Positions 3 to 27,022 of a stretch of 42,249 bases of DNA are shown piece by piece. The notes under the pieces were generated by a model. It did no database searches. It saw only the letters and a program-made list of their open reading frames with translations, and had not been told where the DNA came from. Both the position numbers and the translations under genes were made by a program. Source of the stretch: Chloroflexota bacterium (GTDB taxonomy: Bacteria > Chloroflexota > Dehalococcoidia > Lucifugimonadales > Lucifugimonadaceae); NCBI GenBank assembly GCA_002730795.1, contig PCAX01000029.1:1-42249 (forward strand), written 5' to 3'. The first letter of the stretch is position 1, and every line of letters starts with the position of its first letter.

Positions 3-2912
3 TATGGTGGTTCATGTAGTGCGGCAGCACAACAAGGGGTTACTACTACCTGGGGTGGTGGATCAGGTGATTCTCTAGTAGAATGTCAGCTCAGCACCCA
101 CCTTGTTACCCCAATTCAGGGAACCATAACTGGTTCTGATGACTTTGGCGTCGGTGACAAGATATCGATACGATTGAGTGATGAAGCCGATACGAAAGTA
201 AACGTTGGTGCAACAACTGACTTTAAGTTCTATAGTGCAAACACCACCAGTCAACTGGCTGGATTACAGGTTGATAGTATTACCTTTAATGGTGATGGTA
301 CCAACGACGTCATAATAGCCGTTTCAAGAATTGGTGCGGTGACTTTCGATGACGCAGAGACTACTCCAAACAGTCATGCTTACTCAGGACTTGTTGACAT
401 TACGTTCACTTCATCTGCCAGGAACACTGCTATAGCAACGATGCAGAGCGTTGTGGCTGCTACAGCCGTAACGATTCCTCTTGTTGAGACCGATTACAAC
501 ACCGGTCGATTCGAGGGTAATATTCGAGTGCGTCAGCATAATATAACTAATAACGTTGTAGCTGCGACCACTCTCTGGGACCTTGACGGTGGAGTTAACT
601 GTGCCACGCTGCTGGCAAACTGTATAGCGACCCTTACCACATCAGACAGCCAGTCGATGGTGGCTATAAATGGTCCTATTACTCTTAAGTACACAGATGC
701 CCTAGCGGCTTCAGGTTCAACAGATGTGGCTCGATCAGCTACTATGAACATCGATACTACGCTCCCGACTGCTGAGATTACAGCACCTGCGAACAAGGCT
801 GAGATTCAAACTCGAACGCCGTCGTTTGCTGGAACGTTAGCTGATACGGAATCTGGTATTGACGTCAGTACTTTTGAACTGCATGTTGATAAGACTGAAG
901 ATGACACAATACTAACTAATTACAAGGACGTTATAGGCAGTACGGGAACCGTGAAGGCTACCGCAAACAAGTCCAACATTAACGTCACAACTTGGGTAGA
1001 CGGTGTAACCAGTAAATCCTGGACATACAACTATCCAGACGCTCTGCCTACTGACCTAACTGCAGGTGTAACAGTTAATGACACTGTTGACTTCCAGGTT
1101 TTAGTCAGGGACATGGCTGGTAACGTTGGGTATTCTGACTCGGATACAGCGACTACAAACGTTGATGGTGTATTCGCGAAGTTTGCCCCACACTGGGTGA
1201 AGATAGACCAGGTTATACCTACTCTGTCTGCATCTGTTACCGGTTTCGAGTATGACACGGGCAATAAGATAGATAAGAAAAATTCAAAATCACTCAAGGT
1301 TACTTTTGATGGTAACGTTGACGCTGACACTGTAGCGGCGGCTGATTTCTCTGTAACACTGGATACCGGTGGAGCAAAGGTTCCGACGACGTCTGTAGTG
1401 AACAACGCCGATGTGTATCTCCTTCTTGAAGATACAATACCGTCGAATGACACTCCGAAAATAACCATAGTTGGATCTATTTCGGACAAGGCCGGTAACG
1501 TTACCGATTCTGGTAGTGTCACCGCCACCGATGGAGTTCCTCCGGTACTAACCGTAGCAACTAGTGGTGGTTCAGGTCTTGGAGCAGCTGGTGAAGCCAC
1601 TGGTCCAGAAACCTTGACTAACAATAAGATGACTATCACGATCACATCCGATGAATCTTTGAACGGTAACCCGTACGTATGGGTAACTGAACAGGGTTAT
1701 GATGGTGGTGTGAACACTGATGCTAACTTAAACAACTACACTGCAGGTGAGGGTGGTACGGCTGCGCTAGGTGGTGGAGGCGGTTCAGCCATAGCTACAG
1801 CTAAGGGTGGAAACGTTTACTCCATTGAAGTGGACAATACCAACTCTTCAACCACAAATACTGAATCCAGGAAGATGGCTATACGAGTTCTAGCTACTGA
1901 CCTTGCTTCTAACGAAACAACGGCCGGTGGTGACATAGCTACCAGCACTTACACGTACGTGCTGGACTCGAAGGTAGGAGACATTTACGCTTCTCCAACC
2001 ACGACGACAAAGGACATGCCTTACATTCAGTTCGCATACGCTGATTCAGTTCAGACAAGCCTTGAGGATCGTGAGACCACTGCTCTGACCATAACTACTG
2101 CAACAGTAGATGAAGGAGCTGATGGTGTTGGACTCGTGGACATTGCCGCCGATCTCCAAGCGAGTGCGGACGGTATAACATGGTTCTACAAGCCTGCTGA
2201 GGCACTGAGTGTCGGCAAGCATCTCTTCTCCGTAAAGGTAAAGGATGCCGCGGGTAACGAAGACACTGATACTTTGACGGTTACAAAATCTGACAGGACA
2301 GACTTTAAGATGAGACTGTACGCAGGTTGGAACCTCGTATCCGTGCCTACAGATCCTTCGACTCCCGCAGTTGCCTCTGTGTTCAGTAACACAGGTGTGA
2401 AACAGGTTATAGCTTACTCTGCCACGACTCCTAAGCAGCCATGGAGAATCGCTTCTCAGGCTGACGGAGTATGGACGAGTTCAACCACTCCAGCGCTTGA
2501 GAATATCTCAGCGGGAGCAGGTTACTGGGTAGAGTCTTCGGACTTTGAAGATCAGGTGATTACACTTTCCGGCCCAACTGGCGCTGGTGATGTACGACCT
2601 GCCCTGGTTACCATTCCTGCAGCTGCTGGTTGGAACCTAATCGGTGTTGTTGACCAAGACAAGGACCAGAGCCAGAAAGCTGACTTTGGTACAACTCTGA
2701 ACGTACTTACTTTAGGTAGTGCCACAGCACAGAATTGGAAGCTATACGTAACAGGTGTTTCGGCGAGCAAAGCCTACATATACAAGGCTGCTTCTTCGGA
2801 ATTCGACCTACTGGATATCACGGGCGCCTCAAGTCCCGTTACAATCGGTGATGGTGCGTGGATCTACGTGAGCCCACAGGCCGATGGTTCATTGCCTGAC
2901 ATAGTTCCATAA
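3..2912 (+). CDS. Large secreted/surface-layer-like protein with Ig-like domains and a C-terminal GWNL-repeat module (5' end lies outside the window)
   Basis: ORF track starts at a TTG at 174, but the same frame is open back to position 3 (YGGSCSAAAQQGVTTTWGGG...), so the gene enters from the left. Ig/Big-like segments (PTAEITAPANKAEIQTRTPSFAGTLADTESGID) and two C-terminal AGWNL segments. Confidence 0.8.
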   Translation, partial: YGGSCSAAAQQGVTTTWGGGSGDSLVECQLSTHLVTPIQGTITGSDDFGVGDKISIRLSDEADTKVNVGATTDFKFYSANTTSQLAGLQVDSITFNGDGTNDVIIAVSRIGAVTFDDAETTPNSHAYSGLVDITFTSSARNTAIATMQSVVAATAVTIPLVETDYNTGRFEGNIRVRQHNITNNVVAATTLWDLDGGVNCATLLANCIATLTTSDSQSMVAINGPITLKYTDALAASGSTDVARSATMNIDTTLPTAEITAPANKAEIQTRTPSFAGTLADTESGIDVSTFELHVDKTEDDTILTNYKDVIGSTGTVKATANKSNINVTTWVDGVTSKSWTYNYPDALPTDLTAGVTVNDTVDFQVLVRDMAGNVGYSDSDTATTNVDGVFAKFAPHWVKIDQVIPTLSASVTGFEYDTGNKIDKKNSKSLKVTFDGNVDADTVAAADFSVTLDTGGAKVPTTSVVNNADVYLLLEDTIPSNDTPKITIVGSISDKAGNVTDSGSVTATDGVPPVLTVATSGGSGLGAAGEATGPETLTNNKMTITITSDESLNGNPYVWVTEQGYDGGVNTDANLNNYTAGEGGTAALGGGGGSAIATAKGGNVYSIEVDNTNSSTTNTESRKMAIRVLATDLASNETTAGGDIATSTYTYVLDSKVGDIYASPTTTTKDMPYIQFAYADSVQTSLEDRETTALTITTATVDEGADGVGLVDIAADLQASADGITWFYKPAEALSVGKHLFSVKVKDAAGNEDTDTLTVTKSDRTDFKMRLYAGWNLVSVPTDPSTPAVASVFSNTGVKQVIAYSATTPKQPWRIASQADGVWTSSTTPALENISAGAGYWVESSDFEDQVITLSGPTGAGDVRPALVTIPAAAGWNLIGVVDQDKDQSQKADFGTTLNVLTLGSATAQNWKLYVTGVSASKAYIYKAASSEFDLLDITGASSPVTIGDGAWIYVSPQADGSLPDIVP

Positions 2913-3102: not shown

Positions 3103-4236
3103 GTGATGAAAAAAGCAATCAGTTTTTATATTCTTATAATTTGTGTCGTGTCAGCAATAATAGCTGTATCAACTTCCATTACGGTGCAAGGAGCAGAAGT
3201 TCCTCAAATTACTTCGCTGATATTTTACGGAGGAGTTGAAATATCCAACGGAGACTCTGCCGATGGGTACAAGCTTACGGCGAAAATAGGAGACTATGAA
3301 ACGCAGCCTGTTATTGTTGGTGCTGATGGTCCTAGTGATAGATACTATGGACTTCTTGTTAACCCTCCGCAAGGCACGCACGTAGGTGACACAATTGAAT
3401 TTTGGCTTGAGGGTCAAATAGTTGCGGGCGAAACTGAAGTGTTCCTATATGAGAATCCTGATGGGTCGTATGATACTAATTGGGCACTTCCGCAACAAAG
3501 AGAATTCGACTTGTCTTTTTCGAATAAACCTGTAGCTACAGCCACTCCTACAGCTACTCCAACACTTACGCCTACTCCAACGGCAACCCCCGTTATTTTG
3601 AAACCGTCGTTCTACGAAGGGCGTGCTATAGCCCAATCTCAACCCGTTAATGATGGAATAGAAATTTACGCTAAAGTAGGTGATTATGTTTCCGACCCGG
3701 CAATTGTTCTGGACGGAAACTACTTTCTTACTGTGGACCCCGTAGATGAAAAATATTTTGAACTTAAAGTGGAATTCTACATTGCCAACATAAAAGCAAT
3801 TCAATCGGAGCCTTTTGCGTCCGATATTTACAGATCTGATTTTTTGTTAGTATTTCCCAGTGTCCCAGCATCAACTCCTGTCCCTACTAACACGCCAACA
3901 CCTTCGCCAGTTCCTACTGTAGCCCCAACGGCTACGCTGGTACCTACGAAAGTTCCACCGACATCTACTCCAACTGCTGAGCCTGATAGGACTCCCACTC
4001 CGACGGTAATCCCCACGATGACCGTGACACCAACAACAACCCCTACACCTGTTGTAGATTTGGCGGCAACTATAGTAGCTCAAAATAAAAAAATGGCTGA
4101 CATGGAAGAAACGGGTGGATTTTGTAGTGCCAATAGTGATGGTACAGCGAGTCTCGGTATGATTGGCTTGTTGTTTATCCCGTTGCTGTTAATCGGTCGT
4201 AATAAAATGGGTTATTGGTTGAGGAAGAATTCGTAA
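3103..4236 (+). CDS. Secreted protein with two related beta-rich domains, TPT-rich linkers and a Cys + TM + basic C-terminal tail
   Basis: N-terminal signal-like hydrophobic segment (MMKKAISFYILIICVVSAIIAVS), linkers TATPTATPTLTPTPTATP and VPTNTPTPSPVPTVAPTATLVPTKVPP, C-terminus GGFCSANSDGTASLGMIGLLFIPLLLIGRNK. GTG at 3103 or ATG at 3106. Confidence 0.75.
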   Translation: MMKKAISFYILIICVVSAIIAVSTSITVQGAEVPQITSLIFYGGVEISNGDSADGYKLTAKIGDYETQPVIVGADGPSDRYYGLLVNPPQGTHVGDTIEFWLEGQIVAGETEVFLYENPDGSYDTNWALPQQREFDLSFSNKPVATATPTATPTLTPTPTATPVILKPSFYEGRAIAQSQPVNDGIEIYAKVGDYVSDPAIVLDGNYFLTVDPVDEKYFELKVEFYIANIKAIQSEPFASDIYRSDFLLVFPSVPASTPVPTNTPTPSPVPTVAPTATLVPTKVPPTSTPTAEPDRTPTPTVIPTMTVTPTTTPTPVVDLAATIVAQNKKMADMEETGGFCSANSDGTASLGMIGLLFIPLLLIGRNKMGYWLRKNS

Positions 4237-19617: not shown

Positions 19618-20691
19618 ATGGGAAAAATAAATGTAGCTATTATAGGCGCTGGAAACTGCGCGTCATCACTCGTACAGGGGTTGTACAAATACGCTGAGGT
19701 GGACGAATCATCTGATCCAGTTTCGGGTGTTATGCATAACGTATTGGGAGGTTATGCCATAGGGGACGTTAATATAGTTGCTGCTTTCGATGTTGATGGT
19801 GAAAAGGTTGGTAAAGATTTATCCGAAGCCCTTTTTACCAAAAACAACAATGCAGTTAAATTCCATGATGTACCAAATGTTGGTGTTACTGTTGATAGAG
19901 GGATGACTCATGACGGTATAGGAGAATACCTTAAAGACGTTATAGAGAAAGCCGAAGGATCAACATCAGATATTGTCGGTATATTGAGAGAGAGAAAAGT
20001 GGATGTGGTTATCAATTACCTTCCCGTAGGTTCTGAGCAGGCGACCAAATGGTATGTTGAGCAGGTCTTAGCTGCCGGTTGCGCTTTCGTGAATTGTATA
20101 CCGGTTTTCATAGCGAAAGAACCATACTGGCAAAAAAGATTTGTTGACAAGGGGTTACCAATAGTTGGGGATGATATCAAATCTCAAGTGGGCGCCACTA
20201 TCGTTCATAGAGTACTCGCCAGATTGTTTGAAGATAGGGGTGTAAGGTTGGATAGGACATATCAATTGAATTTTGGTGGTAATACGGACTTTTACAACAT
20301 GTTAGAACGAAGCAGATTGGTTTCCAAAAAAATATCCAAGACCAATGCTGTTCAATCACAACTAGAAAAAGAACTTCCTACGGATGACGTACATATAGGT
20401 CCATCCGACCATGTTCCTTGGCTTGAAGATCGTAAGTGGGCTTATATCAGATTGGAAGGAACATCGTGGGGCGATCAACCTTTAAACATTGAATTAAAAC
20501 TTGAAGTAGAGGATAGTCCAAATTCTGCTGGTGTAGCTATAGATGCTATTAGGTGCGCCAAGATTGCAATGGATAACAATATAACTGGTGCGTTAGAGTC
20601 CCCATCAGCGTATTTTATGAAGTCTCCTCCACACCAGATGCGGGACGACGATGCCAGGAGAGCTGTAGAAGATTTTGCTTCTGATAACTAA
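19618..20691 (+). CDS. ino1: Inositol-3-phosphate synthase (myo-inositol-1-phosphate synthase)
   Basis: [82 protein letters not shown]. Confidence 0.93.
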
Positions 20692-20797
20692 TGAATTCAA
20701 CGATTTAACAGTAAACTGTGGTCTATGGAGTTGGAGTTAGAATATAAACAAAACTTTTAATTTCGTTACAAATGTTTGTAATTTGTAAGATAGACTT

Positions 20798-21952
20798 TTG
20801 AAAATAGCTCAAATATCTCCATACGATTTTGCCTATCATGGTGGTGTTCAAACCCATATTGCCAATTTAGCTTTTGAGCTCAAAAGGCGGGGCAACGAAA
20901 TAACCATCTTGGCCCCATGCTCTAAAAGTCAACCCGTTACATCTGTTGAAGGATCGGATTTTATATCTTTTGGTCGATCCATCCCGATACCTGTAGGAGG
21001 CTCTATAGCGAGGATTTCTCCTTTGATTTGGGGTGACCGGAAACTGAAAACTATACTGGAACAGAGAAACTTTGACATCATTCACATACATGAACCATTT
21101 GTTCCCGCCATTTCTTTCATGGCGTTGAACATGGCAAAAGCACCTGTCGTGGGAACTTTTCATTCATATAATGATAGTAAAACCTCAGGGTATAATTTTT
21201 TGAAACCTTTCTTGTTGAAATCTTCTGGAAATATGGCTGCCAAAATTGCAGTTTCTGAACCAGCAAAAAACTATATTAGTAAGTTTTTTGCTGGTAAGTA
21301 CCATGTCATACCAAATGGCGTGGACACAAAATTTTTCTCCAAATCGAGGGCATATCCATCTTTTTTTGATCGTAAATCGGTCAACTTATTATTCGTAGGG
21401 AGGATTAATGAATCTAGGAAGGGACTCAGATGGCTAATAGGGGCATATTCAATTTTGAAATGGAGAAATTCAAATATTAAACTCGTAGTTGTCGGTGGGG
21501 GTGTGCCTGACGGTGAAACTTATAGGATTATGGGAGAAAGATGTTTGGATGATATTGTGTTTACAGGACCAGTTTCGGATGACGAGTTAGCAAGTTATTA
21601 CCAGCATGCAGATGTTTTTTGTGCACCTAATACTGGAAAGGAAAGCTTTGGTTTTATTATTATTGAATCGATGGCTTCGTCTACTCCGATTGTTGCCTCT
21701 GATATTCCGGGGTTTAACTCAGTTATGGAAAATAACGTGCAAGGATTATTCGTTCAACCAAAAAGTGAAATTGCCCTAGCAAATGCAATAAATAAGATGA
21801 TTGAAGATCCCGCTATGAGGATCAAGTTTGGTATCAACGGGCGAAATACGGCCGCACTTTATAGTTGGGATAAAGTGGTGGATAGAATTTTGGGCGTTTA
21901 TGAAAATGCCCTCATGTTAGACAACTCAAGGCCATTTGACAGTAAGGTTTAG
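20798..21952 (+). CDS. GT4 glycosyltransferase, PimA-like
   Basis: MKIAQISPYDFAYHGGVQTHIANLAFELKRRGNEITILAPCS, HEPFVPAISFMALNMAKAPVVGTFHS, IPNGVD, GKESFGFIIIESMASSTPIVASDIPGF. TTG start. Confidence 0.9.
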   Translation: MKIAQISPYDFAYHGGVQTHIANLAFELKRRGNEITILAPCSKSQPVTSVEGSDFISFGRSIPIPVGGSIARISPLIWGDRKLKTILEQRNFDIIHIHEPFVPAISFMALNMAKAPVVGTFHSYNDSKTSGYNFLKPFLLKSSGNMAAKIAVSEPAKNYISKFFAGKYHVIPNGVDTKFFSKSRAYPSFFDRKSVNLLFVGRINESRKGLRWLIGAYSILKWRNSNIKLVVVGGGVPDGETYRIMGERCLDDIVFTGPVSDDELASYYQHADVFCAPNTGKESFGFIIIESMASSTPIVASDIPGFNSVMENNVQGLFVQPKSEIALANAINKMIEDPAMRIKFGINGRNTAALYSWDKVVDRILGVYENALMLDNSRPFDSKV

Positions 21953-21963
21953 AATAACAAAAA

Positions 21964-22551
21964 ATGATATCTATTAGATTAAAATTGCGTAGAATTGTTT
22001 CTAAATGGTTTGAAAATCCTATCGTAGACCTTTTGGTATTTTTAAAACTTCCCCCCTCTTTAATCACCGTTTTTGGACTAGCCCTTGCCTCAGTTGGAGC
22101 CTATTTCTGTTACAAGGGTAACTTTCTTGTGGCAGGGATAATCGTTTTTATAAGTGCAATTTTCGATATGCTTGATGGAGGAGTGGCCCGAAAAACAAGC
22201 AATGTAACGACCAAGGGAGCTCTACTCGATTCGGTTACTGATCGATTGAGTGAATCCGTAATTCTTATAGGGATCGGGGCATATTTTTTGGACCAAGCAA
22301 ATAACACTTTGGTTATTTTGACCATGATAGCTCTTGTAGGCTCGTTGATGGTAAGCTATATCAGAGCAAGGTCCGAAGGATTGCAAGTTCCGGCAATGGG
22401 AGGTATTTTAACCCGACCAGAAAGAGTCATCATTGTAGTTTTGAGTTTGATAATAGGTTTCCCGAATTATGGTATTTGGATATTGTCTGTTGGCACTCCA
22501 ATTAGTGCTTTACAAAGAATGTTTTTATCATGGCGCTCAATGAACCGGTAA
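21964..22551 (+). CDS. CDP-alcohol phosphatidyltransferase (candidate phosphatidylinositol-phosphate synthase)
   Basis: Complete CDP-alcohol phosphotransferase motif DGGVARKTSNVTTKGALLDSVTD = DG(x2)AR(x8)G(x3)D(x3)D; multi-TM. Confidence 0.92.
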   Translation: MISIRLKLRRIVSKWFENPIVDLLVFLKLPPSLITVFGLALASVGAYFCYKGNFLVAGIIVFISAIFDMLDGGVARKTSNVTTKGALLDSVTDRLSESVILIGIGAYFLDQANNTLVILTMIALVGSLMVSYIRARSEGLQVPAMGGILTRPERVIIVVLSLIIGFPNYGIWILSVGTPISALQRMFLSWRSMNR

Positions 22552-22560
22552 ACTAAAAAT

Positions 22561-23937
22561 TTGGGTAGCATATTGAGATTCAACCATATTTTTCTAGCCA
22601 TAATTGTCGTTTTATTGACCTTTTGTTTGCTTGGGTTGCCTACAGTTAATGCAGACGAAAAACCCGAAAACCTTGAAATTTTATCCTCTAGCGTGACCTC
22701 TGAATTTCCAAATGGGATTTCGTTTACCGCCGATTTTTCTTCTAATCAGAAATTGGAAGAAATAAAAATTTATTTTAAATCAGGTCCCCAATCGACTGTC
22801 CAATATGCTTATATGGACCTAAAAGAATTGAATGGAAAGATTACTGGAGAACTTTTTTACAGGACTAATTCTGGGGATCGTTATTTGCCTCCTGGTACCA
22901 CCGTTAATTATTGGTTCATTGGAATCACCGAATCTGGTCTGGAGATGAAAACAGAATCAAATAGTTTTATATACAACGATTCTAGATATGAATGGAATGA
23001 ACTATCGTCAGGCCCTGTCACTATTTTATTCCATGGACCTATGAAAACTAGGGCAGAGAGACTGAGTGATGCAGTTACCAAATGTTTGGAAATTATGGGT
23101 CCGATTACAGGGGCTGAGATAGAAACTCCAATAACCATGACTTTGTATAATAACAACGCTGAAATGATTGGGGCAGTACAATCTCGGAGTATGGCAACTA
23201 GTCGTGAATTAATTACCGAAGGACAGGCCTTTTATTCTGAAAGTGTAGTGTTAGTGTTAGCTGGTCGACGAGATATAGGTACGGCTACCCATGAGATAAC
23301 TCATATTTTAGTAGGTAGGGCGGCAGGGTCGTCCGGTCAAGTACCATTATGGTTGAATGAAGGTTTAGCCGAATACGGTAATATGGATAAGTCGATATCT
23401 TATAATAGGTTTTTAGAATGGGCCATGGACACTAACAGACTTCTGCCTCTAAGTCATTTGAATCGATTTCCTGGAGATGCTAATTTGACTCTCGTAGCCT
23501 ATGGTCAGGCTAGGAGTGTTGTGGATTACATGATTACTAAATATGGTACCGATAATATGGCAAATCTATTGTCATTGTTAAAATCTGGTCGGGGAATAGA
23601 TTCATCGTTGGAAGAAGTTTACGGGATTGACTTGGAAAATCTCGAGTCGGACTGGAGAGATTCTATAGGCGCCCCACCATATGTTCCTCCCAAACCCAAA
23701 ACAACTGACCTGCCTGCAGCAGAACCTACTCCGGGTTATAAGCTTTTTACTTTGTCTCCGGACAGTGAAGGTACAGATGTTTCTATGTCTCCTATAGAGG
23801 AAGATGCACTGGAAAATAACCTTCAAAGTAAAAAGCTCGAAGGAGCCTGTACTACTGGTGGTAGATCTGACCTGGCGTGGATTGGTTTGTTACTTATGAT
23901 ATTTTGGGCTTATGGCAAAACGAAACGTAGAGCGTGA
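22561..23937 (+). CDS. Secreted gluzincin (peptidase MA-like) metallopeptidase with a Cys + TM + basic C-terminal tail
   Basis: Signal-like N-terminus; HEITHILVGRAAGSSGQVPLWLNEGLAEY (HExxH + downstream Glu); C-terminus GACTTGGRSDLAWIGLLLMIFWAYGKTKRRA. TTG start, 9 bp after the preceding gene. Confidence 0.85.
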   Translation: MGSILRFNHIFLAIIVVLLTFCLLGLPTVNADEKPENLEILSSSVTSEFPNGISFTADFSSNQKLEEIKIYFKSGPQSTVQYAYMDLKELNGKITGELFYRTNSGDRYLPPGTTVNYWFIGITESGLEMKTESNSFIYNDSRYEWNELSSGPVTILFHGPMKTRAERLSDAVTKCLEIMGPITGAEIETPITMTLYNNNAEMIGAVQSRSMATSRELITEGQAFYSESVVLVLAGRRDIGTATHEITHILVGRAAGSSGQVPLWLNEGLAEYGNMDKSISYNRFLEWAMDTNRLLPLSHLNRFPGDANLTLVAYGQARSVVDYMITKYGTDNMANLLSLLKSGRGIDSSLEEVYGIDLENLESDWRDSIGAPPYVPPKPKTTDLPAAEPTPGYKLFTLSPDSEGTDVSMSPIEEDALENNLQSKKLEGACTTGGRSDLAWIGLLLMIFWAYGKTKRRA

Positions 23938-26744: not shown

Positions 26745-26821
26745 AGGAGCGTAGCTCAGTTGGCTAGAGCACCGGTTTCCAAAACCGGCGGTCGGGGGTT
26801 CGAGTCCCTCCGCTCCTGCCA
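26745..26821 (+). tRNA. tRNA-Trp (anticodon CCA)
   Basis: Acceptor AGGAGCG/CGCTCCT, anticodon arm CCGGT-TTCCAAA-ACCGG, T-loop TTCGAGT, encoded 3' CCA. Confidence 0.95.
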
Positions 26822-26850
26822 AATAATGGCAAAACGCTTGTTAATGGTGA

Positions 26851-26937
26851 GCCGGGGTGCTGAAACAGGTAGACAGGCTACGTTGAGGGCGTAGTGCTCG
26901 TAAGGGCGTGTGGGTTCGAGTCCCACCCTCGGCACCA
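26851..26937 (+). tRNA. tRNA-Leu (anticodon GAG)
   Basis: Acceptor GCCGGGG/CCTCGGC, anticodon arm CTACG-TTGAGGG-CGTAG, long variable arm, T arm GTGGG-TTCGAGT-CCCAC, encoded CCA. Confidence 0.95.
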
Positions 26938-26946
26938 CAAATATAA

Positions 26947-27022
26947 GGCGACGTGGCCAAGTGGCTAAGGCGAAGGTCTGCAAAACCTTTATTCGCGGGT
27001 TCGAATCCCGCCGTCGCCTCCA
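26947..27022 (+). tRNA. tRNA-Cys (anticodon GCA)
   Basis: Acceptor GGCGACG/CGTCGCC, anticodon arm AAGGT-CTGCAAA-ACCTT, T arm CGGG-TTCGAAT-CCCG, U discriminator, encoded CCA. Confidence 0.95.

Follow-up and report, generated by a model that had tools for sequence, protein, structure and literature searches.

C-terminal signals of the Cys type that are handled by CPBP proteases are an already known kind, and for the CPBP protease MrtX the processing of such a signal was shown experimentally to be Cys-dependent (PMC11980579). The GlyGly-CTERM tails of the rhombosortase system comprise a Gly-rich motif, a transmembrane (TM) helix and a basic end, but Cys is never present in their signature motifs (PMC3237569). 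In archaea, artA is located near pssA, and lipid anchoring that depends on ArtA requires PssA and PssD (PMC7157517). Candidatus Lucifugimonas is a monoderm with an S-layer-like coat and no peptidoglycan synthesis, which is missing from SAR202 genomes (PMC10444878); sortase-type linkage to the wall is therefore closed to it. The absence of peptidoglycan in the cultured member raises the question of how surface proteins are held in SAR202. The open-access literature yielded no publication in which a Cys-type signal of this kind is named for Chloroflexota.

SAR202 bacteria occur in the ocean in large numbers. The window analysed here (the whole stretch of 42,249 nucleotides) corresponds to contig 29 of a genome of 1.49 Mb with 72% completeness, whose named relatives are SAR202/Dehalococcoidia MAGs and Candidatus Lucifugimonas marina JH1073 (family Candidatus Lucifugimonadaceae). 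It encodes two proteins with an N-terminal signal peptide and a Cys-containing C-terminal tail. The exported stalk protein P0001 (3103..4236, + strand, as translated; the ATG at 3106 is a better start than 3103) contains, besides the signal peptide and the tail, two beta-type domains with Thr/Pro linkers between and after them; it has no match in Pfam and no meaningful match in NCBIfam. Its tail, GGFCSANSDGTASLGMIGLLFIPLLLIGRNKMGYWLRKNS, contains the Cys as residue 341 (nt 4123-4125), and the signal is located at 4114..4236 on the + strand (GGFCSAN..., TM at about 4159-4197, basic end). A preliminary description of this DNA had reported the Cys, the TM segment and the basic end, all of which are present in the translation, although the tail that it quoted stopped nine residues short of the C-terminus. 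The second protein, P0002 (22561..23937, + strand), is exported and belongs to the HExxH peptidases of the MA superfamily (Peptidase_MA_2, PF13485, E=5e-29). Its C-terminus is GACTTGGRSDLAWIGLLLMIFWAYGKTKRRA, with the Cys as residue 430 (nt 23848-23850) and the signal at 23842..23937 on the + strand (GACTTGG..., TM at about 23872-23916, KTKRRA end). Both tails share an architecture, as proposed for them earlier. They comprise a GG-x-C-S motif, a spacer of approximately 8-12 residues, a single TM helix and basic residues at the end. As a separate feature of the window, three tRNA genes are arranged in a row (26745-27019; Rfam).

The tails resemble several described signals and match the model of none. 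LPXTG is absent from both tails, as had been noted for that of P0001, and SAR202 genomes lack the synthesis of peptidoglycan, the acceptor in the sortase system; the PEP motif is also absent from both tails. No obvious named motif had been recognized, and the tails do in fact score under the cut-off of every NCBIfam and Pfam model. The nearest of these models is MYXO-CTERM (TIGR03901), whose likeness had been pointed out from the architecture. The SAR202 tails share with the MYXO-CTERM/MrtX system a short Gly-rich motif in which the Cys is invariant, a TM helix, a basic cluster at the end, a location on exported proteins and a CPBP protease as the likely partner, but they could not be filed as MYXO-CTERM, since the P0001 tail reaches 12.7 bits and the best relative's tail 19.3 bits against a cut-off of 20. 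Moreover, MYXO-CTERM has dozens of clients in Myxococcota, whereas SAR202 has about two per genome, in a monoderm host of the Chloroflexota whose CPBP protease is not a Mrt member by cut-off. JDVT-CTERM/MrtJ and Synerg-CTERM/MrtS are likewise Cys-type signals with a CPBP partner, with few clients in the JDVT case; the SAR202 matches to them are, however, sub-threshold (JDVT-CTERM E=0.049, one tail), and the SAR202 enzyme and target genes are not neighbours. The best reading is that the signal is a new, narrow, unnamed C-terminal anchoring signal of the Cys type, akin to MYXO-, JDVT-, Synerg- and CGP-CTERM.

Orthologs of P0001 occur in most genomes of the family and those of P0002 in 69 of 76. 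Among the C-termini of unique orthologs from this family, the tail Cys is kept in 52/56 P0001-family and 47/51 P0002-family proteins; loss of the Cys in orthologs had been named beforehand as an observation that would speak against a signal. The four P0001-family proteins without Cys all represent a tandem paralog of genus g2, and the P0002-family losses concern genomes G008 and G046 and two genomes of g5. A Gly is located at position -2 from the Cys in 51/52 P0001-family and 42/47 P0002-family tails, the following position is mostly Ser or Asn, and the last 14 residues contain on average 3.9 K/R. In the tandem paralog of g2 (tail GGFNATLPLAIILVLLL) the Cys stretch is gone.

The similarity of the tails was assessed in a non-circular way, with a profile trained on the tails of one family only and run on the tails of the other. 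The P0002-only profile detected 31/56 P0001 tails at E<=1e-3, and the P0001-only profile 13/51 P0002 tails, while at 0.05 both profiles recognized 0/528 C-termini of other ORFs from the own genome, 0/2140 shuffled tails and 0/15 tails of a paralogous peptidase family; one signal is therefore common to two unrelated families. The pair of the window itself is a weak case (E=0.018 for P0001 with the P0002 profile and E=0.28 for P0002 with the P0001 profile). That only these two proteins of the own genome have the tail might suggest that the likeness reflects chance or shared ancestry. This is extremely unlikely: no relation of P0001 to the peptidase is detectable outside the tail, and the tails exceed chance because orthologs in both families keep the Cys, Cys amounts to only 0.04% of residues outside the tail in P0002-family proteins, and the profiles match across families with no match to the background, shuffles or paralogs. 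This reading was accordingly rejected, and we are confident that the tails are a true signal shared by the P0001 and P0002 families.

The number of proteins carrying the signal is small. The tail profile, run on the whole own genome, matched only P0001 and P0002 at E<=10, and in a 383-kb sample of this genome (338 ORFs) these two alone combine a signal peptide with a Cys/TM/basic tail; this survey of C-termini covers 26% of the genome and complements the six-frame profile searches. In the genomes of the family, profile searches found 1-4 tagged proteins each, about two as a rule and nearly always P0001 and P0002; rare extra clients are an exported protein of 955 aa (G046) and a protein of 691 aa (G070). 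The many C-terminal matches that a genome scan had been predicted to give did not appear, and a broad clientele was rejected. Of the lineage-specific sorting signal postulated in the preliminary description, the shared tripartite Cys signal, conserved in orthologs of unrelated exported proteins, stands, while the large clientele does not. Outside the family the tail profile is weak across the class: at least six further genomes among the 393 searched have matches, mostly P0002 orthologs, whose tails read GGC where readable and which belong to three other families of the same order.

The candidate processing enzyme is P0003, a CPBP/Rce1-like protease (PF02517; 79.9 bits against a cut-off of 22.4). 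A single strong CPBP gene occurs in 67 of the 76 family genomes and in 26/26 good genomes, the catalytic motifs EExxxR, FxxxH and HxxxN are intact in 40/40 unique proteins, and trpA is located directly downstream in 59/64 loci. All matches to Mrt models are below cut-off (MrtJ, 47.5 of 75 bits; Mrt_core, 37.2 of 100; MrtS, up to 46.3 of 130). One g4 subclade has lost the gene in seven genomes (G009 and G013-G018), where ftsH is joined directly to trpA and no CPBP match occurs elsewhere; the sister genomes G010 and G011 retain it. The SAR202 subclade with this clean loss is a streamlined one. G012 has no CPBP match either, but it is not counted among the seven because trpA is missing as well. 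A g4 CPBP too diverged to be detected was rejected at the usual place, where ftsH and trpA abut. A first profile had suggested that CPBP was lost together with the tail in g4, which was wrong: it missed the diverged g4 tails, and these carry the Cys. In the CPBP-less subclade the Cys is kept in P0001 of G009, G012, G013, G017 and G018 and in P0002 of G012, G017 and G018; CPBP is therefore unnecessary for retention of the Cys. Conversely, CPBP is present in g5, yet P0002 has no Cys there. The presence of CPBP thus fails as a tracker of the signal. By script, a proline in the middle of the P0001 TM helix was counted in 41/43 proteins of the CPBP clade (of the two others, one is an artefact of the count) vs. 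1/5 CPBP-less ones; this link comes from one clade and therefore represents one evolutionary event.

In the mechanism that we propose, P0001 and P0002 would be exported by Sec and held by the C-terminal helix, and the invariant Cys, predicted just outside the membrane, would most likely be modified, with lipidation on balance the favoured modification; the analysis identified no acyltransferase. The single-copy CPBP beside trpA would then probably remove the helix in most of the family, leaving a lipid-anchored surface protein; CPBP proteases are widespread and serve other functions too, and we put this cleavage forward tentatively. Modification of the Cys may proceed without CPBP and cleavage with it, a two-step model that fits the loss of the proline, as other readings may. 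Lipidation and cleavage would thus be separable as two steps in the natural deletion of one subclade. That the tails are one Cys-type surface-anchoring signal, with the Cys lipidated and the helix then cut by CPBP in most of the family, is on the whole a reading that we hold with slightly less than even confidence. Alternatively, the tail may be a permanent single-helix anchor from which nothing is cleaved, the Cys serving only as a modification site (e.g., for S-acylation) or in a disulfide. The persistence of Cys tails without CPBP agrees with this, as does that of the TM helix and basic end where the Cys was lost (P0002 of g5 and G046, the g2 tandem P0001 paralog and 15 P0002 paralogs). A conserved GG-x-C-S motif, a fixed spacing and a mid-TM proline are, however, more than an anchor needs, and paralogs in the same genomes anchor plainly without any of them: the paralogous peptidases, which have 24-30% identity with P0002 and likewise terminate with a TM helix plus basic residues, contain the Cys in 0/15 proteins. 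A permanent anchor is, in our view, rather unlikely.

Two other kinds of enzyme were weighed against the CPBP protease. A rhombosortase-like rhomboid could cut the tails at the Gly-rich motif, which contains GG; the tails of CPBP-less genomes are notably Gly-rich (GGGCSDGGGSSS). An ordinary rhomboid is indeed present in single copy in 63/76 genomes (26/26 of the good set), including the CPBP-less G009, G014, G017 and G018, so that a rhomboid-like gene, the search for which had been recommended, is as widespread as the CPBP gene. However, rhomboids are near-universal (14/14 control genomes) and the distribution cannot single this one out; it was dropped as a discriminating candidate. In addition, the rhombosortase model (cut-off 84) gives the own rhomboid 47.6 bits, no better a match than that to GlpG (45.3 bits); the protein also has a DnaJ-type zinc finger, and the GlyGly-CTERM motifs lack the Cys that the SAR202 tails keep; cutting by a rhomboid is improbable. 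The zinc finger (CxxCxGxG; TIGR02349, E=1.8e-5) follows the rhomboid domain in this protein (L002:1345-2202, own genome C12). An enzyme akin to exosortases and archaeosortases, or another one that went unrecognised, is a still more doubtful candidate; it might use an inositol-type phospholipid supplied by the operon next to P0002. Such an enzyme would be in line with the archaeal arrangement, since genes for a CDP-alcohol phosphatidyltransferase and a GT4 glycosyltransferase always adjoin P0002 where the contig reaches; mere adjacency, however, shows no link, and exosortase signals are not known to contain an invariant Cys. The ArtA system with PssA/PssD resembles the SAR202 one in that it serves surface proteins in cells devoid of peptidoglycan and a CDP-alcohol phosphatidyltransferase gene adjoins a component of the system, but the SAR202 tails have no PGF motif and the adjoining enzyme is one of the inositol-phosphate type.

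The tails lie in two conserved gene blocks, the same ones across genomes, and in several genomes the same contig carries P0001 and P0002 at a distance of 20-30 kb. The P0002 block (19618-23937) begins with an inositol-phosphate synthase (19618..20691, + strand; PF01658; TIGR03450, 514.7 bits against a cut-off of 638; synteny), followed by the GT4 glycosyltransferase (20798..21952, + strand; family matches and synteny) and, directly before P0002, the CDP-alcohol phosphatidyltransferase (21964..22551, + strand; PF01066). The last is nearest to (archaetidyl/phosphatidyl)inositol phosphate synthases, at scores below their cut-offs (NF040950, 144 bits vs. 180; NF045883, 128 vs. 170). This order is conserved across 33 loci to the extent that the contigs cover it, except that g2-type genomes have the synthase elsewhere, with the other three genes still together. 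One may speculate that SAR202 anchors the peptidase and an S-layer-associated stalk via the Cys signal to a lipid from this inositol-phospholipid operon; we regard this as very unlikely, but if true it would represent an inositol-lipid surface anchor in bacteria. The two-client Cys signal would in any case be a simple, testable anchoring system in the cultured Candidatus Lucifugimonas marina.

The other block contains, upstream of P0001, a large secreted Ig-like protein (174..2912, + strand; C-terminal part in the window; weak Big_13/Big_5 matches) with no tail of its own. It adjoins P0001 in 34/54 loci (short flanks) and is a candidate S-layer-like partner of P0001, which would tether it. In L. 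marina the full-length homolog is 988 residues long and acidic (114 D/E vs. 56 K/R); it has a signal peptide but neither a Cys nor a terminal anchor.
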